Positions 4,110 through 61,778 of a stretch of DNA of 64,000 bases are shown in pieces (position 1 is the first letter of the stretch; each line of letters begins with the position of its first letter). The position numbers were made by a program, and so were the translations under genes. Under the pieces are notes generated by a model. It ran no database searches, was not told where the DNA came from, and was given only the letters and a program-made list of their open reading frames with translations. Origin of the DNA: Paludibacteraceae bacterium (GTDB lineage: Bacteria > Bacteroidota > Bacteroidia > Bacteroidales > Paludibacteraceae); assembly GCA_017450685.1 (NCBI GenBank), contig JAFSTB010000020.1, positions 29,171-93,170 on the forward strand, given 5' to 3'.

Positions 4110-4141
4110 GTTGCGCAATATGAAAAAATGCCATACCTTTG
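4110..4141 (+). promoter_or_regulatory. Bacteroidetes-type promoter of the first DUF4143 ATPase
   Basis: The -7 box TACCTTTG is at 4134-4141, with a GTTG -33-like element ending at 4113 and a 20-bp spacer. The start codon is 52 bp further on, leaving room for the dyad at 4142-4177. Confidence 0.65.
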
Positions 4142-4177
4142 CGGACAAATCATATACTCAACTATACGATTTGTCCG
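4142..4177. repeat. Operator-like dyad at the ATPase transcription start, second copy
   Basis: CGGACAAATC at 4142-4151 and GATTTGTCCG at 4168-4177 form a perfect 10-bp inverted repeat with a 16-bp spacer. It begins directly after the -7 box and so would cover the transcription start. Arms and part of the spacer (CTATAC against CTATAA) match the dyad at 3980-4025. This is the expected place for an autoregulatory operator or an mRNA leader hairpin. Confidence 0.75.
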
Positions 4178-4193
4178 ATAATATGATAATGCC

Positions 4194-5360
4194 ATGTATT
4201 TGAGAGATTTACAAAAGGAACTTTTATTATTGACCAAACAGTGGAGTGTAATATCGGTGACCGGTCCGCGTCAGTCAGGGAAAACGACATTATGTAAGTT
4301 GGCGTTCCCTGATTATGAGTATGTCAATTTGGAGAATCTTCCGATGCGTGAAATGGTGGCGAAAGATCCGATGGCTTTTTTGCAGCGATTTAAGACCGGT
4401 GTAATCATTGACGAGGCGCAACTGCTGCCGGATTTGTTTTCGTATATACAGGTTATAGCCGATGAGGATAAAATAAGCCGATTCGTTTTGTCGGGAAGTA
4501 GTGATTTCCTGCTTATGAAAAACATCAGTCAGTCGCAGGCAGGGCGTGTGGCTGTACTGCGCCTTCTGCCCTTGACCATAAGCGAATTAGGCGATATATC
4601 AAGGTATTCAACAGATGATTTGCTATACAATGGTTTCTATCCCGCCGTTTGGGGCGATGGAAAAAAGGCCGACTATGTGTATGAGAGTTATTTAAGCACC
4701 TATATAGAGCGTGACTTGCGGCAGTTGGTCAACATCAAAGACCTTGAACTCTTTCGCAAATTTATGGTGTTGTGTGCCACACGGATAGGAACAGAGTTCA
4801 ATGCTGCTTCGTTGTCAAACGAACTCGGAATAAGTGTTGTTACGGTAAAGGAATGGTTGAGACTGTTAGAAGCATCCTATATCTGTTATCAGTTGCCGCC
4901 CTTCTTCCGAAATATCGGTAAAAGACTCGTCAAAACTCCAAAAATATATTTCTACGATGTGGGATTAGCGTGTCATCTATTAGGAATACAGTCAGCAACG
5001 CAAGTGGCGACACATCCTCTGCGCGGTAACTTATTTGAGGATATGGTTGTTACAGAAATGCTAAAGACACGATTTAATGCAGGACAGCGCAGTAACCTGT
5101 TTTTCTATCGCGACAAAGGGCAGCATGAGGTGGATGTTTTACAAGAGTTTGGCAATGAATTGCGAGCATATGAGATAAAATCAGCAACAATGATCAGTCA
5201 GGATTTTTATCGCAATATGCGGTATGTTAAGCGTCTGTTGGGAGAAACCTTGTTATCTACACAGGTCATATACGATGGAGAGAACGAGTGGGATAAGGCA
5301 GAGGAAGGTTTCATCAATTATCGCCGTTGGAAAGAAAATAATCCGTGGCAGGAGAAATAG
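4194..5360 (+). CDS. AAA ATPase with DUF4143 C-terminal domain (copy 1)
   Basis: 388 aa. Walker A is GPRQSGKT at residues 24-31; Walker B is GVIIDEAQ with Asp73-Glu74; a sensor-like SGSSDFLL follows near 100. The middle has a winged-helix-like segment (NELGISVVTVKEWLRLLEASYICYQ). The C-terminal DUF4143 region ends in the PD-(D/E)XK-like pair HEVDVL and AYEIKSA, so an ATPase joined to a nuclease-fold domain is expected. The family is widespread in Bacteroidetes and archaea, but its cellular role is not established. The promoter carries a private dyad. The stop codon lies 11 bp before the start of the following glycosyltransferase, which is probably co-transcribed. It interrupts what otherwise looks like a glycan gene cluster. 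Confidence 0.93.
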   Translation: MYLRDLQKELLLLTKQWSVISVTGPRQSGKTTLCKLAFPDYEYVNLENLPMREMVAKDPMAFLQRFKTGVIIDEAQLLPDLFSYIQVIADEDKISRFVLSGSSDFLLMKNISQSQAGRVAVLRLLPLTISELGDISRYSTDDLLYNGFYPAVWGDGKKADYVYESYLSTYIERDLRQLVNIKDLELFRKFMVLCATRIGTEFNAASLSNELGISVVTVKEWLRLLEASYICYQLPPFFRNIGKRLVKTPKIYFYDVGLACHLLGIQSATQVATHPLRGNLFEDMVVTEMLKTRFNAGQRSNLFFYRDKGQHEVDVLQEFGNELRAYEIKSATMISQDFYRNMRYVKRLLGETLLSTQVIYDGENEWDKAEEGFINYRRWKENNPWQEK

Positions 5361-5371
5361 TAGTACCGATA

Positions 5372-6409
5372 ATGCAAACCACTCAACCCATACTTTCTAT
5401 TATCGTCATTTCGCATAATCAGCGAGAGGACTTGAAGAGGTGTCTTGACAGCATACTGCAAATGCGACTTGACTATCCCTTCGAGATTATCGTTTCCGAT
5501 GACCGTTCCGCCGACGGCACTTTCGAGTTGGCGCATGAATATGCGAGGCGGTCTAAAGCAAGAATTATCGCTTTGCAATGCAACTCCGACGAGTGCCATC
5601 CTGCCAATAACTCACAACGGTCAGGCTATAACCGCTGCAATGCTTATCCTTATGCCAAAGGTAAGTATATAGCCCACGTGGATGCCGATGACTATTTCCT
5701 GCCTGATGCCACCGTCTATCAACAGCAGATTGAGGCACTCGACAAACATCCTGAATGTGCACTGGCAATGAGCAACTGCCTATGCGTTAATGAAGGCGAA
5801 CCCATAGAGAACGGACACCCGTGGATATTGCCAAGGCAGATGCATAATGGTGAAGTACTGACGGAACAAGAGTTTATACAAGGCGATTATTTTCGTATCA
5901 ATCAGTGCTTTATCCAACGCCGTAATCCTGCCGTCAATCCAGTGGCACTCTATGGCAAACGATATGTGGACGCCGTGATAACCTATCATCACCTGCAGTT
6001 TGGCAAAGTGGTGTGGGTTGATGCCTGCGATTATGTCTATGTGGGGCATACCGCTTCCGTCACCGGACAAATGGCAAAAACCAACCACGATGCAGACATA
6101 ATATGGTGTATGGCAATCTATATATCGGCTCTTATACCTCGATGGAAACATTTGTTTTTGTCCCAACCCTATTATGCCGAATTGCGACGAGTCATTGCTC
6201 TTGCCTTATCACACTATCAGTTGCAAGACAAAAACAGAGAAGGGTTAAAAGATATGGATGTGTTTATGTATAAGTGCTTTAACCAAAACTATCTCTCTTA
6301 TATAGACCAACAACGTTTAACCGCTGCTAACACCATAATGACAATTGCCAATCGCACGAATGCACCCGGCATATTCTCATCCTTATTGTTCAAACTGCTG
6401 ATTCGGTAA
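5372..6409 (+). CDS. Glycosyltransferase family 2
   Basis: I chose the ATG at 5372 over a GTG at 5345 that lies inside the ATPase gene; translation from it starts MQTTQPILSIIVISHNQRED. The GT-A fold is clear: SIIVISHNQ at the N-terminus, then DDRSADGT, then the DVDADDYF metal-binding region near residue 105 (AHVDADDYF). About 345 aa, the usual size for a single-domain GT2. Expected role: transfer of a sugar from a nucleotide-sugar to a surface glycan; donor and acceptor are unknown. It is the first enzyme of the glycan cluster. Its stop codon touches the 33-bp repeat array of the next ATPase. Confidence 0.88.
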   Translation: MQTTQPILSIIVISHNQREDLKRCLDSILQMRLDYPFEIIVSDDRSADGTFELAHEYARRSKARIIALQCNSDECHPANNSQRSGYNRCNAYPYAKGKYIAHVDADDYFLPDATVYQQQIEALDKHPECALAMSNCLCVNEGEPIENGHPWILPRQMHNGEVLTEQEFIQGDYFRINQCFIQRRNPAVNPVALYGKRYVDAVITYHHLQFGKVVWVDACDYVYVGHTASVTGQMAKTNHDADIIWCMAIYISALIPRWKHLFLSQPYYAELRRVIALALSHYQLQDKNREGLKDMDVFMYKCFNQNYLSYIDQQRLTAANTIMTIANRTNAPGIFSSLLFKLLIR

Positions 6410-6506
6410 ACTTACCCCCATTTTGTAACAAAATCTTCGTCAACTTACCCCCATTTTGTAACAAAATCTTCGTCAACTTACCCCAATTTTGTAACAAAAA
6501 TTTTTG
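6409..6506. repeat. 33-bp tandem repeat (about 2.7 copies) upstream of ATPase copy 2
   Basis: Units start at 6409, 6442 and 6475, exactly 33 bp apart. Copies 1 and 2 are identical; copy 3 diverges after its first half. Each unit carries a run TTACCCC followed by the near-perfect palindrome ATTTTGTAACAAAAT. A further half-site (TTTTTGTAAGTAACAAAAAT) runs into the promoter. The array begins at the last base of the upstream glycosyltransferase stop codon. Its position just upstream of the -33 box suggests binding sites for a regulator. Confidence 0.93.
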
Positions 6507-6532
6507 TAAGTAACAAAAATATAGTACCTTTG
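6503..6532 (+). promoter_or_regulatory. Promoter of ATPase copy 2
   Basis: TTTG at 6503-6506, an 18-bp spacer, and TACCTTTG at 6525-6532, followed by GCGGCGGAT. The start codon is 25 bp after the -7 box. The -33 box overlaps the end of the repeat array. Confidence 0.75.
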
Positions 6533-6557
6533 CGGCGGATTTGAGAAATTAGAAAAA

Positions 6558-7904
6558 ATGAACCTTTTTAAGCGTGACATAGAAAAGGCACTGCAAGACT
6601 GGGCAGAAAGTGCAGATCGCAAGCCGCTTGTTTTGCGTGGTGCAAGGCAGGTAGGGAAGACATCGGTTGTGAATAAATTCGGTTTGAAATTCGACAACTA
6701 CTTGTATGTCAATCTGTATGATGATAATATTTGCCGTGTCATAGATGAGGCGATAAGTGTAGAACGGTTAGTGCCAACGCTGTTTGCCAATGCCGGAAAA
6801 GGATTGAAAAAAGGTAAGACATTGCTTTTCTTTGACGAGATACAGAACTCGTCGAAAGCCGTTTTATGGCTTCGTTTCTTTTATGAGCAAATGCCTGACA
6901 TATATGTCATTGCAGCCGGTTCGCTATTAGAGACGATGATTGACCGGCAGATAAGTTTTCCCGTTGGCAGGGTGGAGTACTTGGCTATGCACCCTGTGTC
7001 GTTCAGGGAATTTTTGTCGGCAAAAGGCGATGATGCTATTCGCCAGGCACTTCATAACGATGTTACTTTATGCAACGCCTTTCATTCTAAACTCAGTGAA
7101 GCCTTTAAGACTTTCTCCCTCATAGGAGGAATGCCGGCAGTGGTGGCACATTACATAGAGCATCAGGATTTGATAGCCCTTAACAAGTATTTTGATACGC
7201 TGCTTAACGGTTATGCCGACGATGTGGAAAAGTATGCTGCCAATCGCACACAAGTGGAGGTGATCCGCTTGATACTGAAAGTGGGCTGGGCACAGGCGGG
7301 AAAGCAGATCTCGTTTGTCAATTTCGGCAATAGCAACTACAGGTCGCGGGAGATAGGTGAGGCTTTGCGTACGCTGGAAAAAGCGATGCTATTGGAGTTG
7401 GTTTATCCGCTTACACAAACGGCTATGCCGGCGTTGCCCAATATGCGCCGCCAACCTAAACTGCTGTGGTTAGATGCAGGGTTGGCAAGCGCAGCGGTTA
7501 ATAATAAAAAGGACATATTCAGCAGTCCGAACTTGTTTGATATATGGAAAGGTGCATACGCCGAGCAGTTGGTCGGACAGGAACTGTTCACTTTGTCTGA
7601 AAGTGTGAGAGCAAGAAGGCTGTTCTGGGTGAACGAGAGCACGCAGTCGTCGGCCGAAGTTGATTTTGTGTGGGAGTACGACGGAAGGCTTATACCGGTG
7701 GAAGTCAAATTAGGGCATAATAATCACCTTAAGTCGTTGCACCAATATATGGAGTTGTCTAAGGACGATGTGGCAGTGAGAGTATGGAATGCATCCGTTC
7801 AGGTGGATGAGGTGGAGACACTGTGGAAGAAAAAGAAATTCAAACTGATCAATATCCCCTTTTATATGGTAGGTTTCCTGCCGCAGATTATACAAACGGT
7901 GTAG
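6558..7904 (+). CDS. AAA ATPase with DUF4143 C-terminal domain (copy 2)
   Basis: 448 aa. Walker A is GARQVGKT at residues 28-35, Walker B is LLFFDEIQ near 93-100, and AAGSLLE is the sensor segment. The mid-region IGGMPAVVAHY is a signature of this subfamily. The C-terminal nuclease-like motif is intact (AEVDFVW, then LIPVEVKLG). The N-terminus (FKRDIEKALQDW, then RKPLVLRGARQ) is the one matched by the truncated remnant at 19987. The gene is preceded by its own 33-bp repeat array and followed 72 bp later by a WbqC-like gene. Expected to be a cytoplasmic ATPase; no substrate is known. Confidence 0.93.
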   Translation: MNLFKRDIEKALQDWAESADRKPLVLRGARQVGKTSVVNKFGLKFDNYLYVNLYDDNICRVIDEAISVERLVPTLFANAGKGLKKGKTLLFFDEIQNSSKAVLWLRFFYEQMPDIYVIAAGSLLETMIDRQISFPVGRVEYLAMHPVSFREFLSAKGDDAIRQALHNDVTLCNAFHSKLSEAFKTFSLIGGMPAVVAHYIEHQDLIALNKYFDTLLNGYADDVEKYAANRTQVEVIRLILKVGWAQAGKQISFVNFGNSNYRSREIGEALRTLEKAMLLELVYPLTQTAMPALPNMRRQPKLLWLDAGLASAAVNNKKDIFSSPNLFDIWKGAYAEQLVGQELFTLSESVRARRLFWVNESTQSSAEVDFVWEYDGRLIPVEVKLGHNNHLKSLHQYMELSKDDVAVRVWNASVQVDEVETLWKKKKFKLINIPFYMVGFLPQIIQTV

Positions 7905-8821: not shown

Positions 8822-9769
8822 ATGACCGTAAAAGAAGTGTTTGAGTTGCGCAAGGAAGGGCGCATAGAAGAGGCATATAATGCCATACTGCCTATGTATA
8901 AAGTTCATCACGGACATTATACCACTCTTTGTATGTTCTGGTGTGCGGCTGATATGGCTCGGTTGCATATTTCGCAAGGCAATACCAATGAAGCGGAAAA
9001 GATATTGCAAAGCCTTATCCGCCTTTATCCCTCCATAGAAGACAAAGATCTCTCCGCTAAACGTACACTGCTCACTATCGCTCTCTCGCTCAAAAAAGCG
9101 AATAAATCCTTCTCCCTTTACCACTTTATGCAATGGTGGGGTATAGACAACCTTACCGACGATGATTATAAGTCCGTTCAGTCAGCCTCTCACCCTCTGC
9201 CATCCACCGGTCAGCGCATCGCCATGCACTTATTTCGCGAGGTGCGTGAGCAGAATGATGAAAAGCAACTGACAACGACACTGACATATATAGAAAAGGC
9301 TCTATCCCATATACCTCGCAATCGCCATCTGCTTCGCGCTAAAGCATTGCTCTTATGTCGATTAGGACAAACGAAAGAGGCAGAGAAGATCTATCGCCAA
9401 CTTGCTCAATACGGCAAAGAAGCCTATCTCTTCAGCGAACTTTCTGAACTCACTGCCGATAATGCCGAAAAGATAGCCTTAACCGTCAAAGCCATACAAC
9501 TGCAACGCACTGAGACTTTTCGTCAGAAAGACCGACTGCGTCTGGCTCAGATGCTGCAACACAAGCGTCCGCCGTTTGCCCGTTATGAAGTAGATATGTG
9601 CGTCAAGACCCGTCAAATCGCCAAACAACATAATAATCGGCGAATCAATGCCTTGCTTCGCCAACTGCAAGACGTAACACCCGCCACTACCAATGAGCAA
9701 CAAGCCTTCTATCAAAAAGCCTTAGCCTACCTGCAAAAGTCAAATCCGACACAAACTCGGAAAAAATGA
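8822..9769 (+). CDS. Tetratricopeptide-like protein of unknown function
   Basis: 315 aa, no signal peptide. Helical-repeat patterns are visible at the N-terminus (ELRKEGRIEEAYNAI, then NEAEKILQSLIRLYP) and in the middle (RAKALLLCRLGQTKEAEKIYRQLAQYGKEA), the usual TPR spacing. I recall proteins with a similar MTVKEVFELRKEGRIEEA-type start in Bacteroidetes defence-like loci, but nothing else here supports such a role. The last codons (PTQTRKK and the TGA stop) lie inside the first 33-bp repeat unit of the next ATPase cassette, so the present C-terminus appears to have been set by that array. Confidence 0.7.
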   Translation: MTVKEVFELRKEGRIEEAYNAILPMYKVHHGHYTTLCMFWCAADMARLHISQGNTNEAEKILQSLIRLYPSIEDKDLSAKRTLLTIALSLKKANKSFSLYHFMQWWGIDNLTDDDYKSVQSASHPLPSTGQRIAMHLFREVREQNDEKQLTTTLTYIEKALSHIPRNRHLLRAKALLLCRLGQTKEAEKIYRQLAQYGKEAYLFSELSELTADNAEKIALTVKAIQLQRTETFRQKDRLRLAQMLQHKRPPFARYEVDMCVKTRQIAKQHNNRRINALLRQLQDVTPATTNEQQAFYQKALAYLQKSNPTQTRKK

Positions 9770-9852
9770 CAAAATCGACCCTGCAAAACTCGGAAAAAAT
9801 GACAAAATCGACCCTGCAAAACTCGGAAAAAATGACAATATTTTGTGTAATT
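9754..9852. repeat. 33-bp tandem repeat (two full copies plus a third running into the promoter)
   Basis: Units start at 9754, 9787 and 9820, exactly 33 bp apart. Each begins AACTCGGAAAAAATGACA and continues AAATCGACCCTGCAA; the third changes after GACA into the promoter. The first unit overlaps the 3' end of the upstream gene and contains its TGA stop. The sequence is unrelated to the array at 6409, although the period is the same. Confidence 0.95.
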
Positions 9853-9893: not shown

Positions 9894-11306
9894 ATGTTAG
9901 AGCGTAAGTTTAGCGAACAAATAGTGACCTTCTTTCAAAAGCAGAAGAGCATAACTGTTGATTCAGCTGTCGGATTGAATGGCAGGAAAATTATGTTGGT
10001 CAATGGTGCCAGACAGGTAGGTAAGTCGTATATCATTCGGCAAGTGGGGCAAAAACTATTTAATCATTATATAGAGATTGACCTCAAGGCAGACAGTGAA
10101 GGGGCAAGGGATTTTGAGAGGGTTAGAAGCGTTGATGATTTTTATATCAAACTGGGTGCATTAGCAGGCGATAGGTTGTCTGACAGGGCGGGTACGCTTG
10201 TTTTTTTAGATGAGATACAAGCCTATCCACACCTGCTTACTATGTTAAAATTCCTCAATCAAGATGGCAGATATACTTATATCGCCAGTGGTTCGCAACT
10301 TGGTGTAGCACTTTTCAATACCCCATCTGTGCCATTGGGTAGTGTGGAAATACAGCAAATGTACCCTCTTGATTTCGAAGAATTCTTATGGGCTATGGGC
10401 TGCGGTAAGGATGTGATTGAATTGATGGAGCAATCGTATAATAAAGGTGAAAGACTATCCGAATCACTGCATAATTATATGATGCGGATGTTTCGTTATT
10501 ATCTGCTGACAGGAGGAATGCCGGATGCGGTGAATCAGTTCGTGAAAGATCAAAACATGGCACTTATAAGAACCATTCAAACGAATATACATAACCTGTA
10601 TGCGATAGACGCTTCACAATATGACGTTGCACATCGCCTTAAAATTCGCAGAATATATGATATGATTCCTTCAAACCTCGAAAATAAAAAAAAACGTGTC
10701 ATAGTAAAGGATATTGAGAATAAAAAAGGCAAGCAATTCTCTGATTATGAGGAAGAGTTTGAGTATCTGGTGGAATCAGGTATTGCATTAGACGTTGTGG
10801 CAATCAGTAATCCGCACTTCCCCCTGTATGAGTCGGTTACCAAGAGTCTGCTTAAATTGTATTTGAACGATGTGGGTATATTGACGGCTATGCTTTACGG
10901 AAACAATATAGATGCCATTCTGCAAGACGAAAGAAGTGTCAATCTCGGAACCGTTTATGAGTCGGTAGTGGCGCAGGAGTTGCACGCACATGGAAACAAA
11001 TTGCATTATTATGATAATAAGAAAAAAGGTGAAGTGGACTTTCTTATTAACGACTTCAACAGCCTATCCGTTTTGCCTATAGAAGTCAAATCCGGTAAGA
11101 ATTATAAAGAACATAGTGCTTTAACACATTTTATATCCAATAGTGATTATGGTATAAAAAATGCAATTGTTTTGTGTAATGAACGTGAAGTGCAAGTGAA
11201 AGACGGTATCACATATCTGCCGATTTATTATTGTATGTTTATAGGTATTCATACTCAACAATCTATCAACAATCTATCTATACCTCCAGTACCATTATAC
11301 AATTAG
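9894..11306 (+). CDS. AAA ATPase with DUF4143 C-terminal domain (copy 3)
   Basis: 470 aa, the longest of the five. Walker A is GARQVGKS at residues 38-45, Walker B is LVFLDEIQ, and the sensor region is IASGSQLGVALF. LLTGGMPDAVNQF matches the mid-domain signature, and the C-terminal nuclease-like motif is GEVDFL then LPIEVKSG. It has a repeat array and promoter on its left, and a diverged copy of that array end and promoter on its right, driving the next glycosyltransferase. That arrangement suggests insertion next to, with duplication of, an existing promoter. Composition is A+T-rich compared with the flanking GT genes. Confidence 0.93.
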   Translation: MLERKFSEQIVTFFQKQKSITVDSAVGLNGRKIMLVNGARQVGKSYIIRQVGQKLFNHYIEIDLKADSEGARDFERVRSVDDFYIKLGALAGDRLSDRAGTLVFLDEIQAYPHLLTMLKFLNQDGRYTYIASGSQLGVALFNTPSVPLGSVEIQQMYPLDFEEFLWAMGCGKDVIELMEQSYNKGERLSESLHNYMMRMFRYYLLTGGMPDAVNQFVKDQNMALIRTIQTNIHNLYAIDASQYDVAHRLKIRRIYDMIPSNLENKKKRVIVKDIENKKGKQFSDYEEEFEYLVESGIALDVVAISNPHFPLYESVTKSLLKLYLNDVGILTAMLYGNNIDAILQDERSVNLGTVYESVVAQELHAHGNKLHYYDNKKKGEVDFLINDFNSLSVLPIEVKSGKNYKEHSALTHFISNSDYGIKNAIVLCNEREVQVKDGITYLPIYYCMFIGIHTQQSINNLSIPPVPLYN

Positions 11307-11332: not shown

Positions 11333-11398
11333 AAACTCTGAAAAAATGACAATATTTTGTATAATTAAGGAATAATCAGTACTTTTGCCGCGCATTAT
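11333..11398 (+). promoter_or_regulatory. Duplicated promoter segment driving the glycosyltransferase pair
   Basis: This segment aligns over about 66 bp with 9819-9885: AAACTC(G/T)GAAAAAATGACA, ATATTTTGT(G/A)TAATTAA, then the -7 box and a shared GCGCATTAT. The promoter itself is TTTG at 11356-11359, a 20-bp spacer and TACTTTTG at 11380-11387. A further TCTGAAAAAA lies upstream at 11311. The glycosyltransferase start codon follows 20 bp after the -7 box. Confidence 0.8.
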
Positions 11399-11407: not shown

Positions 11408-12406
11408 ATGACAACACCTTTAGTCTCTATATGTTGTATCACCTATAACCACGCTCCGTTCATACGCGGATGTTTAGATGGCTTCCTTATGCAGCAGATG
11501 CCCTCATGTGTGAGAGAGTATTATGCTCACAAGTATGGCAAAGAGACATCGTTAGACGAGTGTGAGAAAAAAGAACCGTGGTACGAAATACTTATTCACG
11601 ACGACGCTTCCACCGATGGCACTGCCGACATCATCCGTGAATATGAGCAGCGTCATCCCAACCTGTTCAAACCTATCTACGAAACTGAAAACCAGTACAA
11701 AAAAGGTCACCGTACAGATATCGACTTTTTCAATTATAAGCGTGCCAAAGGTAAATACATCGCCTATTGTGAGGGCGATGACTATTGGACTGTTCCCGAC
11801 AAATTGCAGCGACAAGTGGATTTCCTTGAAGCACACCCCGCCTATTCGGTATGCTTCCATAAAACGAAGATATTAAACACTCTGACCAATCAAATGCAAC
11901 CTGATAACTGGATGCGCTTCGATTATCCGGACAGTATAGACGAAGATGTTACGCCGTCATATTTCCTTCGCTCGTCGGTGGGGCAACCTTTGTCAATGGT
12001 GTTTAGAACAAGCCGATACGACTACGAGTGGCAAAAACACTATAACGACTACTGCGATACAATGGAGATTTACCATCTTCTGCGTACAGGCAAAGGGCGA
12101 ATGATGAAGTTTATAGGCGGTCAGTATAACCTGCACGGCGGTGGTGTGTCTGCCACAATGGACGAGTGCCAACGCTCAGTGGAGACAATGGATGATTTCC
12201 TGACTATGTATCTCTATACTCGCGATGAGGAGTTGAAAGCATATTTTATCAAAGCAGTATTCTTTGCGAAAGATTTGTGCACCCAAAACGGTCAAAAAGT
12301 GAAGTTCCGAGAGTGGATGCACGCAATAAAGAAAAAGAGTTTGAGAATGTGGCTATATTACGAATACATCAACCTTAAACGTACCATTAAAAGCCTGTTC
12401 GTATGA
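11408..12406 (+). CDS. Glycosyltransferase family 2
   Basis: 332 aa. VSICCITYNHAPFIRGCLDG opens the GT-A fold, followed by ILIHDDASTDGT and the acidic YCEGDDYW motif near residue 125, which binds the metal-nucleotide-sugar. CFHKTKIL and GGGVSATM are typical of this GT2 subgroup. Role: sugar transfer in surface glycan assembly; donor unknown. The stop codon overlaps the start of the next GT by 4 bp (ATGA), so translation is probably coupled. It is driven by the duplicated promoter at 11333-11398. Confidence 0.9.
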   Translation: MTTPLVSICCITYNHAPFIRGCLDGFLMQQMPSCVREYYAHKYGKETSLDECEKKEPWYEILIHDDASTDGTADIIREYEQRHPNLFKPIYETENQYKKGHRTDIDFFNYKRAKGKYIAYCEGDDYWTVPDKLQRQVDFLEAHPAYSVCFHKTKILNTLTNQMQPDNWMRFDYPDSIDEDVTPSYFLRSSVGQPLSMVFRTSRYDYEWQKHYNDYCDTMEIYHLLRTGKGRMMKFIGGQYNLHGGGVSATMDECQRSVETMDDFLTMYLYTRDEELKAYFIKAVFFAKDLCTQNGQKVKFREWMHAIKKKSLRMWLYYEYINLKRTIKSLFV

Positions 12407-14522: not shown

Positions 14523-14574
14523 ATTATTCCTTTGGATTTTTCCTAAGTAGGTTAATTATTCCCTTGGATTTTTT
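14523..14574. repeat. Two-copy 32-bp spaced repeat without an ATPase gene
   Basis: ATTATTCCTTTGGATTTTT (from 14523) recurs as ATTATTCCCTTGGATTTTTT (from 14555), 32 bp apart. On the minus strand the units read GGAAAAATCCAAAGGAAT, recalling the GGAAAAA starts of the arrays at 9754 and 19903. It directly follows the stop of the tandem GT gene. No ATPase lies nearby. Confidence 0.6.
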
Positions 14575-19902: not shown

Positions 19903-19986
19903 GGAAAAATGTGAAAGAGGCGGATTAAAACACTTGGAAAACTGTGATAAACAAGGGTAAATGTACTTGGAAAACTGTGATATAGT
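19903..19986. repeat. 33-bp periodic repeat in the leader of the ATPase remnant
   Basis: GGAAAA(A/C)TGTGA recurs at 19903, 19936 and 19969, exactly 33 bp apart. The last two units share a longer match (ACTTGGAAAACTGTGATA). The array lies between promoter and start codon here, whereas it is upstream of the promoter at 6.4 and 9.8 kb. Confidence 0.85.
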
Positions 19987-20079
19987 ATGCTTAAAAGCAA
20001 GATAGACAGGTATTTATGCGATTGGTATAGTGCTAATGATAAAAATCCGCTAATTGTGAGAGGTGCGAGGAAGATTTGA
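19987..20079 (+). pseudogene. Truncated AAA/DUF4143 ATPase remnant (N-terminus only)
   Basis: A 30-codon ORF beginning MLKSKIDRYLCDW and ending NPLIVRGARKI before TGA. It matches the N-terminus of this ATPase family up to the Walker A loop; copy 2 has RKPLVLRGARQ at the same place. The GxGKT part and everything after are missing, and 160 bp later prfC ends on the other strand. Promoter and 33-bp array are preserved, so this is a decayed cassette of the same kind as those at 6.5 and 9.9 kb. Confidence 0.75.
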
Positions 20080-32453: not shown

Positions 32454-35400
32454 CTATCGCAGTTCTTTTTTACCGTTGCGGATGATAATGCCGTTGTAAT
32501 TGTCATCAACGGGTTGTCCTAACAGGTTGTAGGCTTGACCGTTATCATCGGCGTTGGTGTCGATGACGCCGGTAGGCGTTTTTTCTGTGGCTTCAAATTG
32601 CGCCGTGTAAGTGATATCACCTACCACCATACTTAATTCCGGTGACCAACCGCTGAAGGTATAGATGTAGGTCTCATCTTCTTCGCGTGTAGGCACATCA
32701 CCACTATATTCAGGCATCATACCATATGCAAGTATATCGTCTTCCAATACCTTTCCGTCATAGTTAAGGAAGCGCACGGAATAGACGCGCAGGTTGCTTT
32801 CGAATTGTGCGGTGTAGTCGGCATCAGCTGTAACAGCCACAATCTCTTTATCCCAACCGGTGAAGGTGTATTCATATTCAGCGGTGGCAGGTTGTGTAGG
32901 TGTCTGACCTGTGTATTCTGGCATTTCGTCGTATGCGAGAGTGAGTTCTTGCAGTGTTTCGCCATCGTAGTTAAGGAAGCGAATGGTGTATGTTATAGCG
33001 TTGCTCTCGAATTGTGCGGTGTAGTCGGCATCGGCTGTAACAGCCACAATCTCTTTATCCCAACCGGTGAAGGTATATTCATATTCAGCGGTGGCAGGTT
33101 GTGTAGGTGTCTGACCTGTATATTCGGGTGTTTGTCCTTCTGCCAACAAGATTTGTTGTAATATAGTGCCGTCGTAATTGAGGAAGCGGATAGTGAAGTA
33201 TTTAATATCGCATGTATAGTGGTAGCGATTGAAGGAGTGTGAGGTGAGTGTGTTCTCTTCGTAGGTCTCCACCAGTTCGGTGCGCAGTCTATCGTCGTCT
33301 TCATAACTGCGTTCGTTGCGATTGCGATAGGTCCATTCGTCGTTCAGCCATTGATATTCGTTGGTAATTATTTCCAGTCCGCGAGAGTTGAAGACGTGGA
33401 TGTTTCTTGTTTCGTTGACCCATTCGGTGTCGTTGAATCGTTCCAAGATGTCTTCTGTCAGTCGTTTTTGGCTGTCGTAGATATATGTATGTCTGAATAC
33501 GCCTACCCAGTCACCTGTGTCGTCGGTTGTTTTCCACGAGTAGTTGATTTCTTGTTGCAGTTGGTCGTTCTCGTCGTAGATGCGTTCGGTTTTGTAGGAG
33601 CCAACCCAGTCAAGGTTTTGTCCGAGGTACATAATGGAGACCACTTCTCGTCCTTTGCTATCGTAGGAATAGAGATACCAGTACCCGGGGTATAAAGTGC
33701 CGTTTTTATTATTGAGTCTTTTCTCTTCTAATTTGCGGTTGTTCTGGTCGTATATCCACGTTATTTCATAGGTTGTTATCCAAGTATCGTCAGTGAAGGT
33801 TGCCTGTGCGTGATAGACCATATTGCCGGCAGCGTCATATTGCCATTCTTCTTTGTCTGTACCTATCCAAACAGTGTCGCTACCGCATTTATATGCAGCG
33901 TTTAAGATGGTATGTCCTGCCTCGTCATATTCGATGTCGGTGCGGGTCATAGAGGTCATTTTCCAAGCACCGTCGGTATAGGTGTCGTTTTCTGTTTGGA
34001 TAAGTATAACTTTCTGGTTATATGTATTGACTGTTCTTGTAGTGGGGGTCCACTCGTCGTTTATATATTGGTAGTTGGTGATGGTGTCGGCTTTGTTGTT
34101 GTTGGTGTAGGATGTCACTTTTTTCGTTGTGTAGGTCCATTCGGTGCCGTTCCATGTGGCAGCATATTCTTCGGCAACGAGACTGCCGGTATAGACATAG
34201 CCTGTGAGGGATTTATTCACCCATTCGCCGTCTTTCCAAGTGTAGGTGATTTTTTGGTCGGTCTTGTTGTTGCTGTTGTAGGAAGTGGTAGTTTTGGAAG
34301 AACCTACCCATTCGCCGTTTTTCCAAGTATATACTTCTTTGTTGGTCTCGGCGTTTTTGGCGTTGTATTCGCTGACGGTTTTAGAGGAGTTAACCCATTC
34401 GTTGTTAGTCCATTTATATTTGAGAATGAGTGTTGTTTTGCCTGCGTTGTTATATTCCCATTCTGTTTTGGACGAGCCTGCCCATTCGCCGTTTTTCCAA
34501 GTGTATTGTTCGTCGAGCAGTTTCTTTTTTGATTCGTTGTATAGATAAATCTTTTTATAACTGCCTGTCCATGTGTCTGTTTCGGGATTGTAAGCTGTGT
34601 AATAGGAGTCGAGCGTTTGGTTCTGATATTCGTCGTATTCGTACTCATACTTGCTTGTAGGCAGCCAACTGCTTGTTTCCGTGTTCCATACGGCTGTTTG
34701 TGCGAGCAATGTTTGGTTGTTAATGTTGTAGATATAGGTTGATTGTGTGGCACCTATCCATGTGAGGGTGTTAGTGTCGAAATTATATTCAGTTGTTTCG
34801 GTGGGTTTGCCTGCTTGGTTGAAGAGATAGGTATAGCGTTTTTTCCCTTGCCAATCGTTGTTTGCCCATGTGGAGATAATCCATTCGGTGGTGTTACCTG
34901 CGTTGTCGAAGGTGTAGTCGTTCTTTTCGGAGCCTATCCAGTCGTTCAATTCTTCGCTCCAAACCCAGGTGGAGTTGGAGGTCGTTTTGCCATTGTTGTC
35001 GAAGGTATAGTCTTTCTTTTGTGAGCCTATCCAGTCGTTGGTCTTATCGCTCCATACCCAAGTAGAGGTGGATATAAGTTTGCCGTTGTCGTTGTAGGTG
35101 TTTTCTGTTTTGGTGATACCTCTTTTTGTGCCTTCTTCCCATTCCCATTTGGCTGTTTGAATGGTGCGATACTTATCGTCGTAGATATAGGTGGTAAGTG
35201 TGGCGGGTTGGTTCTCGCTATTGTAACCGATGACGCTATCCACGGGGCAGTCGGTGGCTTGCGGAGCCATAGGTCTGTGGCTGTCAGAATCGATATCTGG
35301 CATAGGATGAGCAAACGGCAATACAAATGATTGTGTTGCGCTGTCGGATGTGAGAGCCGATGTGTCTAATTCGAGGAGAAGAGAATCGGTTGTTTCAACG

Positions 35401-35510
35401 AACAGATCTTCGTTGTTTAGAAGTGATTGAGCGTTGTTATCGCTTGACAATTGAGCCCTAACGGACATAAAGGCAATTAGGGCAAGAAAGAAGAATAAAT
35501 ACTTTTTCAT
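32454..35510 (-). CDS. Large repetitive secreted protein with Flg_new-type repeats and sorting-like tail
   Basis: 1018 aa from the ATG at 35510 (MKKYLFFFLALIAFMSVRAQ, signal peptide). Residues from about 85 to 750 hold about 20 repeats of 30-38 aa built on W-x(n)-W-x(n)-Y-x-Y-(D/N) (for example WVWSDKTNDWIGSQKKDYTF). Three Listeria-Bacteroides (Flg_new) repeats of about 69 aa follow (IRFLNYDG, then FTGWDKEI, then YTAQFE); the first two are nearly identical at DNA level. The tail NLLGQPVDDNYNGIIIRNGK resembles a type IX sorting signal. Probably a surface-exposed or secreted adhesin-like protein; no enzymatic motif is seen. It is monocistronic between its own promoter and the terminator at 32.4 kb. 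Confidence 0.85.
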   Translation of the reverse strand: MKKYLFFFLALIAFMSVRAQLSSDNNAQSLLNNEDLFVETTDSLLLELDTSALTSDSATQSFVLPFAHPMPDIDSDSHRPMAPQATDCPVDSVIGYNSENQPATLTTYIYDDKYRTIQTAKWEWEEGTKRGITKTENTYNDNGKLISTSTWVWSDKTNDWIGSQKKDYTFDNNGKTTSNSTWVWSEELNDWIGSEKNDYTFDNAGNTTEWIISTWANNDWQGKKRYTYLFNQAGKPTETTEYNFDTNTLTWIGATQSTYIYNINNQTLLAQTAVWNTETSSWLPTSKYEYEYDEYQNQTLDSYYTAYNPETDTWTGSYKKIYLYNESKKKLLDEQYTWKNGEWAGSSKTEWEYNNAGKTTLILKYKWTNNEWVNSSKTVSEYNAKNAETNKEVYTWKNGEWVGSSKTTTSYNSNNKTDQKITYTWKDGEWVNKSLTGYVYTGSLVAEEYAATWNGTEWTYTTKKVTSYTNNNKADTITNYQYINDEWTPTTRTVNTYNQKVILIQTENDTYTDGAWKMTSMTRTDIEYDEAGHTILNAAYKCGSDTVWIGTDKEEWQYDAAGNMVYHAQATFTDDTWITTYEITWIYDQNNRKLEEKRLNNKNGTLYPGYWYLYSYDSKGREVVSIMYLGQNLDWVGSYKTERIYDENDQLQQEINYSWKTTDDTGDWVGVFRHTYIYDSQKRLTEDILERFNDTEWVNETRNIHVFNSRGLEIITNEYQWLNDEWTYRNRNERSYEDDDRLRTELVETYEENTLTSHSFNRYHYTCDIKYFTIRFLNYDGTILQQILLAEGQTPEYTGQTPTQPATAEYEYTFTGWDKEIVAVTADADYTAQFESNAITYTIRFLNYDGETLQELTLAYDEMPEYTGQTPTQPATAEYEYTFTGWDKEIVAVTADADYTAQFESNLRVYSVRFLNYDGKVLEDDILAYGMMPEYSGDVPTREEDETYIYTFSGWSPELSMVVGDITYTAQFEATEKTPTGVIDTNADDNGQAYNLLGQPVDDNYNGIIIRNGKKELR
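32800..33125 (-). repeat. Internal direct repeat of about 119 bp in the secreted protein gene
   Basis: The segment at 32800-32918 recurs at 33007-33125 with only a few substitutions, 207 bp (69 codons) apart. It encodes the second halves of two adjacent Flg_new repeats. Recombination between the copies would add or remove one repeat in frame. Confidence 0.85.
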
Positions 35511-35536
35511 ACCTTTTTCGCGTTTGTTTTGCGCTG

Positions 35537-35568
35537 CAAAGGTACGGCAAAACAGTTGATTATGCAAA
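35537..35568 (-). promoter_or_regulatory. Promoter of the large secreted protein
   Basis: On the minus strand TTTG (35568-35565), a 20-bp spacer and TACCTTTG (35544-35537). The start codon is about 27 bp downstream. Confidence 0.8.
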
Positions 35569-57288: not shown

Positions 57289-57294
57289 AATACA

Positions 57295-58124: not shown

Positions 58125-58156
58125 TTTGCACACTTGCTTTCTTTGTTTTACCTTTG
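58125..58156 (+). promoter_or_regulatory. Orphan promoter pointing rightward
   Basis: TTTG at 58125-58128, a 20-bp spacer and TACCTTTG at 58149-58156, then CCGC. No convincing gene follows; mosaic dyad 2 starts 26 bp downstream. Confidence 0.75.
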
Positions 58157-58182
58157 CCGCTGTTAGAGAACAAAAAATACTT

Positions 58183-58214
58183 GTCCCAATAAAACCGTTC
58201 GGTTTTGTTGGGAC
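58183..58214. repeat. Mosaic dyad 2 (half-site types b | b')
   Basis: GTCCCAATAAAACCG pairs with CGGTTTTGTTGGGAC around TT; 14 of 15 positions match. Both arms are of type b. Confidence 0.9.
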
Positions 58215-58339
58215 AAATCGTTGTAAGTGGCTGGTAATGAGTGGAGAGTTTTTATGGTTGAGAGTGGAGATGCTTGTTGGGTACGCAGGAAGGCACACCT
58301 GCGTACTGAAATTGGCTTATCAATCATTGGAAAGAAAAA

Positions 58340-58372
58340 CTGCTCGAAAACGAACGGTTTTATTTTGAGCAG
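58340..58372. repeat. Mosaic dyad 3 (half-site types a | a')
   Basis: CTGCTCGAAAACG on the left and GTTTTATTTTGAGCAG on the right, both of type a, through a CGAACGG core. Confidence 0.85.
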
Positions 58373-58445
58373 TTTGTATGCGTCGCGATATCGAAGAGAG
58401 ACCTTCATAAGGTTCTGATAATAAAAATAGTGCCGAAATATGTCG

Positions 58446-58476
58446 CAAATGTAAAGCAATATTTTTACTGCTCAAA
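58446..58476 (-). promoter_or_regulatory. Orphan promoter pointing leftward
   Basis: On the minus strand TTTG (58476-58473), a 19-bp spacer and TACATTTG (58453-58446). The -33 box lies inside the type a half of dyad 4. No clear gene is downstream. Confidence 0.65.
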
Positions 58477-58500
58477 ATAACCGTTCGGTTTTGTTGGGAC
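58468..58500. repeat. Mosaic dyad 4 (half-site types a | b')
   Basis: CTGCTCAAAATAACCG on the left (type a) and CGGTTTTGTTGGGAC on the right (type b inverted), through a CCGTTCGG core. Same half-site order as dyad 1. The 960 bp from 57844 to 58803 hold only these repeats, the two orphan promoters and the ATPase promoter. Confidence 0.85.
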
Positions 58501-58648
58501 GGGTAAACGGCTTGTAATCAGGCGAATTGACGTTTTTAGTCTCAGGCAGGACTCCAGCTCCCCCAAGTGAATCCAACCGCAGGTGACACACCTGCGTACC
58601 CAACACGCACGGCTCTGCCGATCGTTCGGAGCGAAGCGGAGATAAGAA

Positions 58649-58692
58649 GTAACCAACATGCAGTTACGAAGCGACCTTTGACGTACTGAAAA
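58649..58692. repeat. Bracketing repeat R, copy 1
   Basis: GTAACCAACATGCA followed by GTTACGAAGCGACCTTTGAC and GTACTGAAAA. The same block recurs at 60265-60310 and, less completely, at 61850-61881. Copies 1 and 2 enclose ATPase copy 4. Confidence 0.85.
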
Positions 58693-58743
58693 TTTGTACT
58701 CAGTTGCAAAAAATGATGAATTTTGAGAAATTTTTGCAATCCC

Positions 58744-58776
58744 TTGTAATTATTTTACAAAAACATACTATCTTTG
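58744..58776 (+). promoter_or_regulatory. Promoter region of ATPase copy 4 with dyads
   Basis: The -7 box TATCTTTG is at 58769-58776; TTG at 58744-58746 is the nearest -33-like element (22-bp spacer). Two dyads lie around it: TTGCAAAAA (58704-58712) with TTTTTGCAA (58731-58739), and TTGTAA / TTACAA (58744-58760). Confidence 0.6.
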
Positions 58777-58803
58777 CAGCGGATTTCAAAAACTCATAAT
58801 GTT

Positions 58804-60003
58804 ATGAAAGAGATTTTGCGCACGGATTATTTGGATTGGTTGTACTCGTGGCATGACAAGCCCATCATCAAAGTGCTGACTGGTATTCGCCGTTGCGGCA
58901 AGAGTACGCTGCTGCGGCAGTTCCGCCAACTCCTGATGGAACATGGAGTGAGTGAGGAACAGATTATCAGTATCAACTTTGAGGATATGTCGAACCAATC
59001 GCTTATGCAGGCTATGGCATTACATACATACCTTACAGAGCGTTTGCAGAAAGGGCGGATGACCTATATCCTCTTGGACGAGGTGCAGATGGTTGAAGAG
59101 TTCCAACGGGCGGTGAACAGTATCTATCTGCGTCCCGATGTGGATATTTACATAACGGGCAGCAACGCCCATCTGCTGTCAGGCGAATTGGCGACACTGC
59201 TTTCGGGCAGGTACATACAACTCCATATTATGCCGCTGTCGTTCAAAGAATATACACAAGGGATGCCGTATGTCCAAACACGCGATTACAACACCTACAC
59301 CACAACAACATCCTTCCCGTTCCTGTTCCGGCTCTCCAACGATACGGAAATACTACAGTATCTTCACGACATCTATGCCACCGTGATGATGCGTGACGTG
59401 GTGGAACGCAATAACATACAGGATATCAATGTACTGAACCGCGTTATTGCTTTTATGGCGGACAACATCGGCAATCTAACCAATCCGAAACGCATAGCGG
59501 ACACGCTCACTTCCGCCGGAACAAGAATATCACCGCATACAGTGAATACATATTTGGAGGCTCTGACCAATTGCTATTTGTTTTACCCTGCGCAGCGCAT
59601 TGATGTCAAGGGAGGAGAGATATTGCGGACAGGAAGGAAATACTACCTTGCTGATGTAGGAATACGACAGGTATTAGTCGGCAGTCAGCATACAGACAGG
59701 GGGCATATCTTGGAGAATGTCGTTTTTCTCGAATTACTACGCCGCCATCGCAACCAACAGGTTTATATCGGCAAAGCAGGAGATGCTGAAGTTGATTTTG
59801 TGTGCCAAGATGGGGGGCAGCGCGTCTATTATCAGGTGGCATTGACGGTGCGTGAGGAAAAGACATTACAGCGTGAACTTGCTGCTTTGCACGCGATTAG
59901 CGATAGTTATCCCAAGTTTCTTCTAACGCTTGACGAAGAACCGCCAATTGACCACAACGGCATCCGCCAGTTGTATGTATTAGACTGGCTGTTAGGTAGG
60001 TAA
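58804..60003 (+). CDS. AAA ATPase with DUF4143 C-terminal domain (copy 4)
   Basis: I use the ATG at 58804 (MKEILRTDYLDWLY); the longer ORF would include the promoter. 399 aa. Walker A is GIRRCGKS at residues 27-34, Walker B is YILLDEVQ, and the sensor region is ITGSNAHLLSGE. It belongs to a different branch from copies 1-3: the mid-part has RDVVERNNIQD and the C-terminal nuclease-like motif is AEVDFVCQ followed by YYQVALTV, so the usual E-x-K is Q-V-A. That form is common in this branch and may mean the nuclease-fold domain only binds. A terminator follows at 60067; repeat R lies on both sides. Confidence 0.92.
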   Translation: MKEILRTDYLDWLYSWHDKPIIKVLTGIRRCGKSTLLRQFRQLLMEHGVSEEQIISINFEDMSNQSLMQAMALHTYLTERLQKGRMTYILLDEVQMVEEFQRAVNSIYLRPDVDIYITGSNAHLLSGELATLLSGRYIQLHIMPLSFKEYTQGMPYVQTRDYNTYTTTTSFPFLFRLSNDTEILQYLHDIYATVMMRDVVERNNIQDINVLNRVIAFMADNIGNLTNPKRIADTLTSAGTRISPHTVNTYLEALTNCYLFYPAQRIDVKGGEILRTGRKYYLADVGIRQVLVGSQHTDRGHILENVVFLELLRRHRNQQVYIGKAGDAEVDFVCQDGGQRVYYQVALTVREEKTLQRELAALHAISDSYPKFLLTLDEEPPIDHNGIRQLYVLDWLLGR

Positions 60004-60066
60004 CACCTGTCCGAAAGAAAGAATGCGAAAGCATTCATCACAAAGACATACATTATTTTTTGCAAG

Positions 60067-60100
60067 AGAGATACTCGTTTATAGCAAGTATCTCTTTTTT
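60067..60100 (+). terminator. Terminator of ATPase copy 4
   Basis: AGAGATACT (60067-60075) pairs with AGTATCTCT (60087-60095), followed by six T. Confidence 0.85.
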
Positions 60101-60181
60101 GTGTATAGTTTTCAGTACGGGCAGCAGATATAAATTCCGACGTAAAAATGTACAATGACATAACTAACAACAAAACAATTA

Positions 60182-60310
60182 ACTAACCAACATCCACTCC
60201 TAACACGTAGTAACCAACATTCAGTAACCAACATTCACTCACCAACACGCAGTAAATAACACAAGTCCCCAACACGAAGTTACGAAACGCTCTTTGACGT
60301 ATTGAGAAAA
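60182..60310. repeat. 14-bp degenerate tandem repeat leading into bracketing repeat R, copy 2
   Basis: GTAACCAACATTCA occurs at 60210 and 60224; related 13-14-bp units (CTCACCAACACGCA, GTAAATAACACAA, GTCCCCAACACGAA) follow to 60278. The last unit runs into GTTACGAAACGC and TTTGACGTATTGAG, the R block also seen at 58649. The remaining part of the gap 60004-60318 holds only the terminator at 60067. Confidence 0.85.
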
Positions 60311-60316
60311 TCATTT
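60300..60316. repeat. 17-bp inverted repeat, left arm
   Basis: TATTGAGAAAATCATTT. Its exact reverse complement is at 61762-61778. The arm ends 2 bp before the stop codon of ATPase copy 5. Confidence 0.92.
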
Positions 60317-60318
60317 TT

Positions 60319-61599
60319 TCAGTCTTTCAGACAGCCGATAGGAACGACCATTGTGCCGTCTTTGAGAGAATAAGCATATTCTCCAACGGCGGTGAGTACC
60401 ATTCGGAATGCCGGTTCACCGGCACGTTCGGTATTTATTTTGCCTGTTAGTTTATTCAGCGATGCCTGTGCGGTTTCAATGGCTGTTCTACCACCGAGTT
60501 TGATTTCTATAAGACCGTATGAACCGTCGCGACACTCAATTACCGCATCGCATTCAAGTCCGTTCTTATCGCGGTAGTGATAGACTTTGGCATCAATGGC
60601 ATCAGCATAGACGCGCAAGTCGCGTACAGCCATTGTTTCAAAAATAAGTCCGAAGGTGTTGAGATCGTTGAGAAGTTTATTTGGAGTGATACCAAGAGCG
60701 GCTGCTGCGATGCTCGGATCAACGAAATAGCGGGTGTCAGCAGTACGAATGGCTGTTTTACTCCGAAGATTGGTACTCCATGCCGGCATATCTTCTACCA
60801 CGAATACTTTTTCCAATGCATTGATATATGAAATGATAGTTTTTTCTGACAGACTGTTTTCATCATTTGTCAGCATATCTTGATGGATTGTGCTAATCGG
60901 AGCCTGTGAGCCTTGCAGACGTGCTAATGAACGCAACAACAGTCGAACACGTCGTGGATTGCGCAGCGTTTCGTCCACACGCGATATATCCGATGACACT
61001 AACGCATCTACATAATTGTAAGCAGTCTTCAAGGCTATGCGGGGTGATCTATTCAATGTATCTGGCCAACCTCCGCGACATAACAAAAAGGCTATATCTT
61101 CCAAAGTATGAGCATTGTGTCCGATGACGTTATCTGCACTCTCAAACAGACTGCCGAGGCTCACCTCTCCTGTTGATTCGCCTGATTCCCACAGACTCAT
61201 CGGGCGCATTCGGAAATGTGCATATCGACCGGTACCGGTGTGATGTATTCTGTCTGACTCAAGGGGAACAGCCGAACCTGTTAGAATGAACTGACCTTTT
61301 TCTTGTCTGTGGTCCACCTCATAACGGATAGCATCCCATAGTTCGGGTATCGACTGCCACTCGTCAAACAAGCGAGGAACAGAACCCGCTAAAAGGTAAG
61401 GCATATTGGTTTGCGCCATACGAATACTTGATTCCAAAACAGAAGGATTAGCGAGCATCACTTTGCTTTTCGCCACCTGCTCGCAGGTGGTTGTCTTGCC
61501 ACACCATTTAGGACCTTCCACCAATACTCCGCCTGTCATTTCCAAATAATCTTGTAGCAATCGGTCTGCTATACGCCTTTTGTAGGTTATTTCTGCCAT
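60319..61599 (-). CDS. AAA ATPase with DUF4143 C-terminal domain (copy 5)
   Basis: I use the ATG at 61599 (MAEITYKRRIADRLLQDYL); the longer ORF would run into the promoter. 426 aa. Walker A is GPKWCGKT at residues 29-36, Walker B is PRLFDEWQ, with LTGSAVPLE as the sensor part. A third branch of the family (EGPKWCGKTTT is diagnostic). The C-terminal nuclease-like motif is intact: LECDAVIE followed by LIEIKLGG. The gene with its promoter lies between 17-bp inverted repeats and between copies 2 and 3 of repeat R. It faces ATPase copy 4 tail to tail. Confidence 0.93.
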   Translation of the reverse strand: MAEITYKRRIADRLLQDYLEMTGGVLVEGPKWCGKTTTCEQVAKSKVMLANPSVLESSIRMAQTNMPYLLAGSVPRLFDEWQSIPELWDAIRYEVDHRQEKGQFILTGSAVPLESDRIHHTGTGRYAHFRMRPMSLWESGESTGEVSLGSLFESADNVIGHNAHTLEDIAFLLCRGGWPDTLNRSPRIALKTAYNYVDALVSSDISRVDETLRNPRRVRLLLRSLARLQGSQAPISTIHQDMLTNDENSLSEKTIISYINALEKVFVVEDMPAWSTNLRSKTAIRTADTRYFVDPSIAAAALGITPNKLLNDLNTFGLIFETMAVRDLRVYADAIDAKVYHYRDKNGLECDAVIECRDGSYGLIEIKLGGRTAIETAQASLNKLTGKINTERAGEPAFRMVLTAVGEYAYSLKDGTMVVPIGCLKD

Positions 61600-61627
61600 A
61601 TATAGTAATATATTTGTTTCAACGCGA

Positions 61628-61659
61628 CAAAGGTATGGCATATTTGTTACTTTACCAAA
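61628..61659 (-). promoter_or_regulatory. Promoter of ATPase copy 5
   Basis: On the minus strand TTTG (61659-61656), a 20-bp spacer and TACCTTTG (61635-61628). The 23-bp repeat array lies just upstream. Confidence 0.82.
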
Positions 61660-61675
61660 TAAATATGGTATATAA

Positions 61676-61744
61676 TTACTAAAAATGGCTGATATTTATT
61701 ACCAAAAACGGCTGTATATCGTTACCAAAAATGGCTGTATCATA
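61676..61744. repeat. 23-bp tandem repeat (three copies) upstream of ATPase copy 5
   Basis: TTAC(T/C)AAAAA(T/C)GGCTG(A/T)AT recurs at 61676, 61699 and 61722, exactly 23 bp apart. The array ends at about 61744, 15 bp upstream of the promoter's -33 box when read from the minus strand. Confidence 0.92.
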
Positions 61745-61761
61745 TAAGTTCCTTGCTAAAC

Positions 61762-61778
61762 AAATGATTTTCTCAATA
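61762..61778. repeat. 17-bp inverted repeat, right arm
   Basis: AAATGATTTTCTCAATA, the exact reverse complement of 60300-60316. Together the arms enclose the ATPase copy 5 gene, its promoter and its 23-bp array, about 1.48 kb. Confidence 0.92.

Follow-up and report, generated by a model that had tools for sequence, protein, structure and literature searches.

ATPase genes of the DUF4143 group usually carry putative iterated operators at their promoters. These sites are branch-specific, real, widespread and, as far as the literature was searched, undescribed, and they are most likely bound by the ATPase itself. The genes were analysed in a stretch of 64,000 nucleotides from the draft genome of a Paludibacteraceae bacterium (assembly GCA_017450685.1, contig JAFSTB010000020.1, positions 29,171 to 93,170), referred to as the window, and in related loci. 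The window contains five AAA_14-DUF4143 ATPase genes and one remnant; the draft genome (1.81 Mb, 85.6% complete) gave 12 DUF4143 matches, of which 10 exceed the Pfam threshold. A first-pass annotation of the window had proposed that each ATPase recognises its own site, and this is supported, at the level of sequence, by the excess of upstream arrays, the near privacy of their cores and the co-variation of core and protein.

ATPase genes and repeat arrays of the window

The genes, denoted by their start positions, were found where the annotation had placed them, at 4194-5360, 6558-7904, 9894-11306 and 58804-60003 on the plus strand and at 60319-61641 on the minus strand. The open reading frame (ORF) listing begins the 58804 gene at an upstream TTG (58774). 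All five proteins scored above the Pfam cut-offs for AAA_14 and DUF4143, which on domains places them in the PDC-S01/DUF4143 group, and all five matched the PADLOC models of PDC-S01, a single-gene defence candidate. The nuclease-site residues D/E/K are present in the 4194 protein, while the 58804 protein belongs to a branch without the E-x-K of this site and reads QVA there.

The repeats that had been described beside these genes were recovered with Tandem Repeats Finder (TRF) and a scan for self-matches at fixed lags. Three units of a 33-bp direct repeat with the core ACCCCCATTTTGTAACAAAA precede the 6558 gene (6406-6500, plus strand; TRF 6409-6499), the first unit overlapping the stop codon of the preceding gene, and three 33-bp units with the core AAACTCGGAAAAAATGACAA precede the 9894 gene (9753-9841, plus strand; TRF 9753-9838). 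The 60319 gene has three units of a 23-bp direct repeat (61675-61740, minus strand; TRF 61668-61740), whose core reads TTACCAAAAATGGCTGTAT on the plus strand. Directly before the 4194 gene lies the dyad CGGACAAATC...GATTTGTCCG (4142-4177), and a related dyad at 3980-4025 has CGGACAAAT half sites at 3980, 3985, 4004 and 4012. The remnant (19987-20079, plus strand) comprises the first ~30 ATPase codons and ends where the Walker A loop begins, translated as MLKSKIDRYLCDWYSANDKNPLIVRGARKI and followed by a stop, and has kept a two-unit array upstream (19903-19982, plus strand), detected in the scan at lag 33. For the 58804 gene two short dyads had been noted, of which one (58706-58737) reached the dyad threshold and a second clear one was not confirmed. 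The arrays had also been described as unlike each other. This holds for their sequences but not for their period, which members of a branch have in common: it is 33 bp for 6558, for 9894 and for the remnant. The branch-fixed period and the loss of E and K in the 58804 branch are features that the annotation did not contain.

Array geometry belongs to the protein branch

ATPase genes of the same order were sampled from 99 genomes plus 60 genomes, longer stretches being taken for control genes. The window and 214 loci yielded 969 ORFs of at least 100 amino acids, of which 247 resemble one or more of the window's five proteins; branches were named after the best-matching window protein. Duplicates were discarded, as were genes truncated by the end of a contig or preceded by less than 150 bp. 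This left 199 ATPase genes and 560 others, and 39 of the latter were removed for sharing ATPase upstream DNA, which gave 521 clean control genes. An array was called at a gapless self-match score of at least 14, a threshold picked after the data had been seen. Within 250 bp upstream, this score was reached at lag 33 by 59 of 91 6558-type genes, 11 of 28 9894-type genes and 1 of 521 controls, and at lag 32 by 16/91, 5/28 and 3/521, respectively. When each gene was counted once in 300 bp, 32/33-bp arrays preceded 69 of the 91 6558-type and 15 of the 28 9894-type genes, compared to at most 4 of the 521 controls in the 250-bp scan; a divergent gene pair with one common array (L208) was counted twice. 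At any lag, score 14 was attained upstream of 119/199 ATPase genes and downstream of 25/190, and upstream of 70/560 controls before filtering. Sixteen controls scored at least 14 at lags 31-34 or 64-67, and 13 of these lay within 400 bp of an ATPase gene and shared its upstream DNA. The arrays are not a product of chance, which the gene-level controls make unlikely. The comparison suggested in the annotation, to collect DUF4143 ATPases and look for repeats before them, thus found upstream repeats to be far commoner there than before other genes.

The geometry of the array belongs to the protein branch. Genes of the 58804 type have sites at lags 39-42 in 13/39 cases, and several of these consist of palindromes. 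In the 521 controls, each single lag of this range attains the threshold one to three times. Inverted repeats with a score of at least 12 precede 19/38 4194-type, 19/39 58804-type, 23/91 6558-type and 4/28 9894-type genes, compared to 22/200 sampled controls, and some 6558-type cores are palindromic. For the 60319 type a period of 23 bp was expected beforehand from the window, one other locus and plasmids, and 119 genomes were then searched. Three of the 27 loci in this set lacked the N terminus and were left out. The remaining 24 genes include the window gene, the previously seen locus and a pair of near-identical copies that come from a single genome. A 22/23-bp array is called in 22 of the 24, and among lags from 12 to 70 the highest score falls on 23 in all of them. 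The 23-bp period also occurs on a Collinsella plasmid, from a different phylum.

A further set from named genomes comprised the best 80 of at least 569 relatives, mostly metagenome drafts, with labels including Bacteroidota, Treponema, Desulfobacterales, Cloacimonadota, Acidobacteriota, Gammaproteobacteria and others. Here 70/80 loci have a 32/33-bp array, found in 0/386 random segments of the same loci. This set and the same-order set are not independent: arrays are common to L298/L155, L286/L061 and L280/L063, among others. In IMG/VR, 17 of 30 examined loci (of 31) had a best lag of 32, 33 or 66 with a score of at least 14, near-identical contigs being counted separately. Of 10 hand-picked plasmid or phage loci, 9 show the period of their branch or its double, those of Segatella copri HDE06, Vibrio coralliilyticus OCN008 and Fusobacterium animalis having 32 bp.

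Conserved cores and their position at the promoter

A motif was seeded by eye on 69 of the 80 loci, 11 being omitted (5 without and 6 with an array). The refined core motif TTTaCCCTtAcTTTGTtACAAA has 188 sites in 66 of the 69 loci, and the distance from core to core is exactly 33 bp in 103 and 32 bp in 11 of 122 cases. Spacer length stays constant while spacer sequences diverge. Outside the core and within 70 bp of the start codon, 27 of the 66 loci contain a TAnnTTTG box, which we take to be the Bacteroidetes -7 element; a reversed control motif was found in one locus. In 17 of the 27 box-bearing loci a core begins 24-29 bp before the box, between -33 and -7, and in other loci the last core extends to the start codon. 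Both positions favour repression.

Cores co-vary with the winged-helix and nuclease-fold domains

The structural model of the 6558 protein has a mean predicted local distance difference test (pLDDT) value of 95.1. Read by eye, it suggests an AAA domain (1-145), a helical region (146-229), a winged helix (230-305) and a nuclease fold from about residue 306; the Pfam DUF4143 match (221-385) covers winged-helix and nuclease-fold parts. G28, G33 and K34 are invariant in two alignments of the family. Over the whole chain, the nearest solved folds in Foldseek are a Pyrococcus ATPase (P. abyssi PABY2304, 2qen) and Cdc6/Orc1-like AAA+ proteins, and 8bob, a maltose-system entry, is matched too. No close relative emerged when sequences were compared with those of solved structures, the one plausible match being a weak one of the C-terminal part to a Cas4-family exonuclease (4r5q, E 0.028). 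The assignment of the nuclease fold is based on this match, on the conserved D and E-x-K and on a passage of PMC12988326.

The sharing of cores (score of at least 12) increases with protein identity, from ~1% of 991 pairs at 30-35% to 10 of 15 pairs at 60-80%. Core and protein distances are correlated (Mantel rho 0.238; best of 300 permutations 0.125). Partial co-variation was assessed in 60 named-genome loci and in the 43 that remained after thinning to below 65% identity. The winged helix co-varies with the core's 3' half (0.316 with 0/200 permutations in 60 loci; 0.284 with 0/1000 in 43 loci), and the nuclease fold, residues 351-448, with its 5' half (0.269 with 0/200; 0.223 with 1/1000). 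Neither in the 60 nor in the 43 loci did the 3' half co-vary with the nuclease fold or the 5' half with the winged helix, and between spacer and winged helix no co-variation was seen in the 60 loci. Among the top 25 couplings, core positions 16-18 pair with residues 253, 254, 263, 264 and 268, and positions 9-11 with residues 360, 362 and 363. The expectation that array sequence would co-vary with the DNA-binding part of the protein was thus borne out, chiefly for the winged-helix and nuclease-fold domains.

The putative nuclease site itself differs between branches. Scored in proteins of at least 330 amino acids, D/E/K is complete in 35/35 4194-type, 75/79 6558-type, 26/26 9894-type and 2/2 60319-type proteins and in 0/36 of the 58804 type. 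In all 36 of the latter, E and K are replaced by Q (once N) and a small residue, and D is retained in 35/36. As this branch lacks the catalytic E and K yet has sites, the sites are independent of nuclease activity.

Near-private cores and the limits of similarity between related copies

Cores of 74 arrays were searched in the fetched loci, allowing up to 3 mismatches in 18 positions. The own upstream regions contained 229 same-strand and 7 other-strand matches, and 12 matches lay elsewhere in the loci, 8 of them in a second array of one gene; shuffled cores gave ~2 in all. A core is thus nearly private, seldom occurring away from the gene to which it belongs. Across the draft genome, with up to 3 mismatches allowed, the 6558 core matches its three units only, with 4 matches for a reversed control pattern. 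The 9894 core matches its three units, one site before the 11408 gene and one more at two mismatches (control none); at three mismatches it also occurs in the array of its paralog on contig 33. Sites that are private to their gene and co-vary with its protein, as found here, are those expected of an autorepressor.

DNA similarity between related copies comprises array and gene and little else. Of 48 related pairs tested in the named-genome set, 36 had arrays on both sides and an alignment whose near end lay no more than 60 bp from the start. No pair among these extended more than 60 bp beyond the larger array or more than 100 bp beyond the stop codon, and 19 reached at least half of the array. 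In 4 of 5 pairs above 77% identity, similarity ends within ~10 bp of the outer edge of the array; in some near-identical relatives (L230/L232, L311/L322) the flanks are common too. In a Bacteroides plasmid family, the ATPase gene with its upstream DNA occupies the position taken in another plasmid by the end of hipB and hipA. In this pair DNA was replaced rather than cleanly inserted, and the copy has only two cores, 66 bp apart. The case fits transfer of the gene with its promoter.

Proposed mechanism and alternative explanations

We propose that the cassette consists of one gene and its own iterated operator and that array and gene move together. The AAA+ protein would bind cores in its own promoter that sit on the same side of the double helix, roughly two to four turns from one another, at a spacing set by the branch (23 bp, 33 bp or ~40 bp). 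Within the 6558 branch, reading of the core would be divided between two domains, with its 3' half assigned to the winged helix and its 5' half to the nuclease fold. The bound oligomer would most likely shut its own promoter, since in many loci the gap between the -33 and -7 elements, or else the start region, is occupied by a core; the ATP state or an invader would relieve this block. Judged from the sequence comparisons, binding of the protein to its own array is highly probable. Control of its own promoter is likely, and the same degree of likelihood applies to the cassette as a whole, a self-contained unit that regulates itself through a protein reading the array beside its gene; repression rather than activation is favoured with some reserve. 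A role in defence can be put forward tentatively. Rather unlikely, though conceivable, is that the array is more than an operator. In that case an ATP-driven nuclease assembly would be parked on it. The protein would count its private address and grip it with both winged helix and nuclease fold, would stay quiet and scarce there, and would be set free once an invader disturbs this state, each cassette being a single-gene, self-addressed immune or selfish device that has an address code to itself. The annotation had suggested a self-regulating or selfish module. Its first half gains support from the promoter overlap, which points to self-regulation, while a selfish character was not shown, cores being almost absent downstream and the one exchange case fitting transfer of gene and promoter.

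Several observations weigh against the proposed cassette. Only 15 of the 28 9894-type and 13 of the 39 58804-type genes pass the array threshold, 10 of the 80 relatives have no clear array, and one of the two S. copri genes read, that of DSM 18205, has none. The promoter box was recognised in just 27 of the 66 loci. Co-variation of the spacer with the nuclease fold was borderline (~0.05), the helical region 146-229 reached ~0.04 with the whole core, and the single strongest coupling connects position 16 with residue 161, in the helical region. The Mantel tests leave some shared ancestry, and 28 partial tests were made (20 + 8). Finally, cores of paralogs in the same genome are no more different than expected, and avoidance of cross-talk was not seen.

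An array at a promoter could also be an activator platform or sensor site through which the protein turns itself on upon invasion. Upstream cores lie ~60 and 93 bp before the -7 box, positions at which activators usually bind, but the space from -33 to -7 is covered by a core in 17 of the 27 box-bearing loci and elsewhere the last core reaches the start, which favours repression. Activation is improbable. An excerpt of PMC4406477 reports that RNA of the Thermus DUF4143 member TT_P0211 is 6.6-fold higher with a plasmid than without it, only when Argonaute is present, which would suit activation; the upstream region of this gene, however, has no direct-repeat array. Somewhat less probable still is a minimal mobile or homing cassette, whose nuclease and winged helix would act on the array to move or copy the cassette, the array being the end of the element. 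The limits of similarity at the outer array edge and the stop codon (0/36 pairs more than 60 bp and 100 bp beyond, respectively), the ATPase and upstream DNA in place of the end of hipB and hipA and the array retained by the window remnant would all agree with mobility. Against it, a whole branch without catalytic E and K still has sites, and the plasmid exchange replaced DNA without a clean insertion and left two cores 66 bp apart. In addition, recognition sites at both ends, as in a transposon or homing element, did not appear in the downstream core search: among the 74 genes, some of whose loci end short there, a single core match lies within 500 bp downstream. An element with two ends was rejected on this count, one of the 12 core matches outside the own upstream regions being downstream.

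Iterated sites on the same DNA face are typical of Orc1/Cdc6, plasmid Rep and ParR systems, and the nearest folds include DNA-bound Cdc6/Orc1 initiators. That the arrays are iterons of a replication origin or a centromere is nevertheless very unlikely in view of up to 29 DUF4143 matches per genome, the position of the window ATPases amid glycosyltransferase and similar genes, the weak similarity to Orc1/Cdc6 (TM-score ~0.3) and the overlap of arrays with promoters in many loci. Replication slippage would explain the identical units of some arrays, as in fresh duplications. Functionless arrays of this origin have a negligible probability, the period being equal across phyla and control genes almost always lacking such arrays, and they were rejected on the unequal decay of core and spacer: in many arrays cores are kept, spacers have diverged and the period is fixed at 33.

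Relation to described systems

The excerpted text of PMC12988326 describes PDC-S01 as an ATPase fused to a PD-(D/E)-X-K superfamily domain and states that validation is pending for most such defence candidates. PDC-S01 is reported to rank fourth in abundance among defences across prokaryotes and to be the most frequent individual locus in a rumen survey (excerpts of PMC12988326 and PMC13356809). The window proteins resemble it in matching its models and in the fusion of ATPase and nuclease fold, but its descriptions in these excerpts mention no array, operator or binding site. Among the matches listed in searches for DUF4143/AAA_14 ATPases, PDC-S01 and 33-bp repeats, titles and abstract openings contained no such arrays, and nothing was found on what PDC-S01 binds; DUF4143 was mentioned in one paper found, PMC4406477. 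In Thermus thermophilus HB27, we observed no direct repeats at a DUF4143 gene (L337, 14854-16074) and, by eye, palindromes in its start region.

Orc1/Cdc6 and PABY2304 (2qen) share with the window proteins an AAA+ module plus winged helix and were matched by Foldseek; the nuclease-fold domain, the private array of each gene and its position in the own promoter set the DUF4143 ATPases apart. In toxin-antitoxin operons and plasmid iteron or parC systems, a protein binds repeated sites in its own promoter. By comparison, the cassettes studied here have a single gene, a geometry set by the branch and a nuclease-fold domain that apparently takes part in reading. MalT-type STAND (signal transduction ATPases with numerous domains) regulators are NTPases that bind repeated DNA sites and regulate other genes, whereas the core found here is almost confined to its own gene. 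For a very common, unstudied protein, a conserved, branch-specific DNA site that it seems to read itself offers an experimental way in, as binding, footprinting, structural and reporter studies can start from it. The co-variation promises many natural pairs of protein and site from which a recognition code could be learned. It also suggests that a PD-(D/E)xK-type domain can act as a sequence reader.

Further repeats in the window and related loci

A single unit of the 9894 core with 1 mismatch (11333-11352, plus strand) is located in the promoter of the glycosyltransferase gene at 11408. This promoter (11333-11380) closely reproduces that of the 9894 ATPase and has one array unit. The neighbouring gene may be under the same control as the ATPase, or the promoter may have been duplicated. 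At 14523-14573 (plus strand) a two-unit 32-bp repeat (lag 32, score 17) has no adjoining ATPase gene. Its core resembles some cores of the 6558 branch, and it is possibly an orphan array, the scar of a lost cassette. A DUF4143 gene on contig 33 of the source genome (54718-55111, inside L042) is apparently broken into two pieces. At one locus present in two copies of the collection (L070/L209), a 6558-type gene has, besides its promoter array, a second array of ~12 units ~500-900 bp upstream. Short repeats around AGTAACCAACA and ACGAAG flank the 58804 and 60319 genes (60184-60274 and 61822-61864), with similar sequence near 58640. Finally, approximately two 207-bp repeats at 32793-33195 lie within a large ORF (32454-35567).

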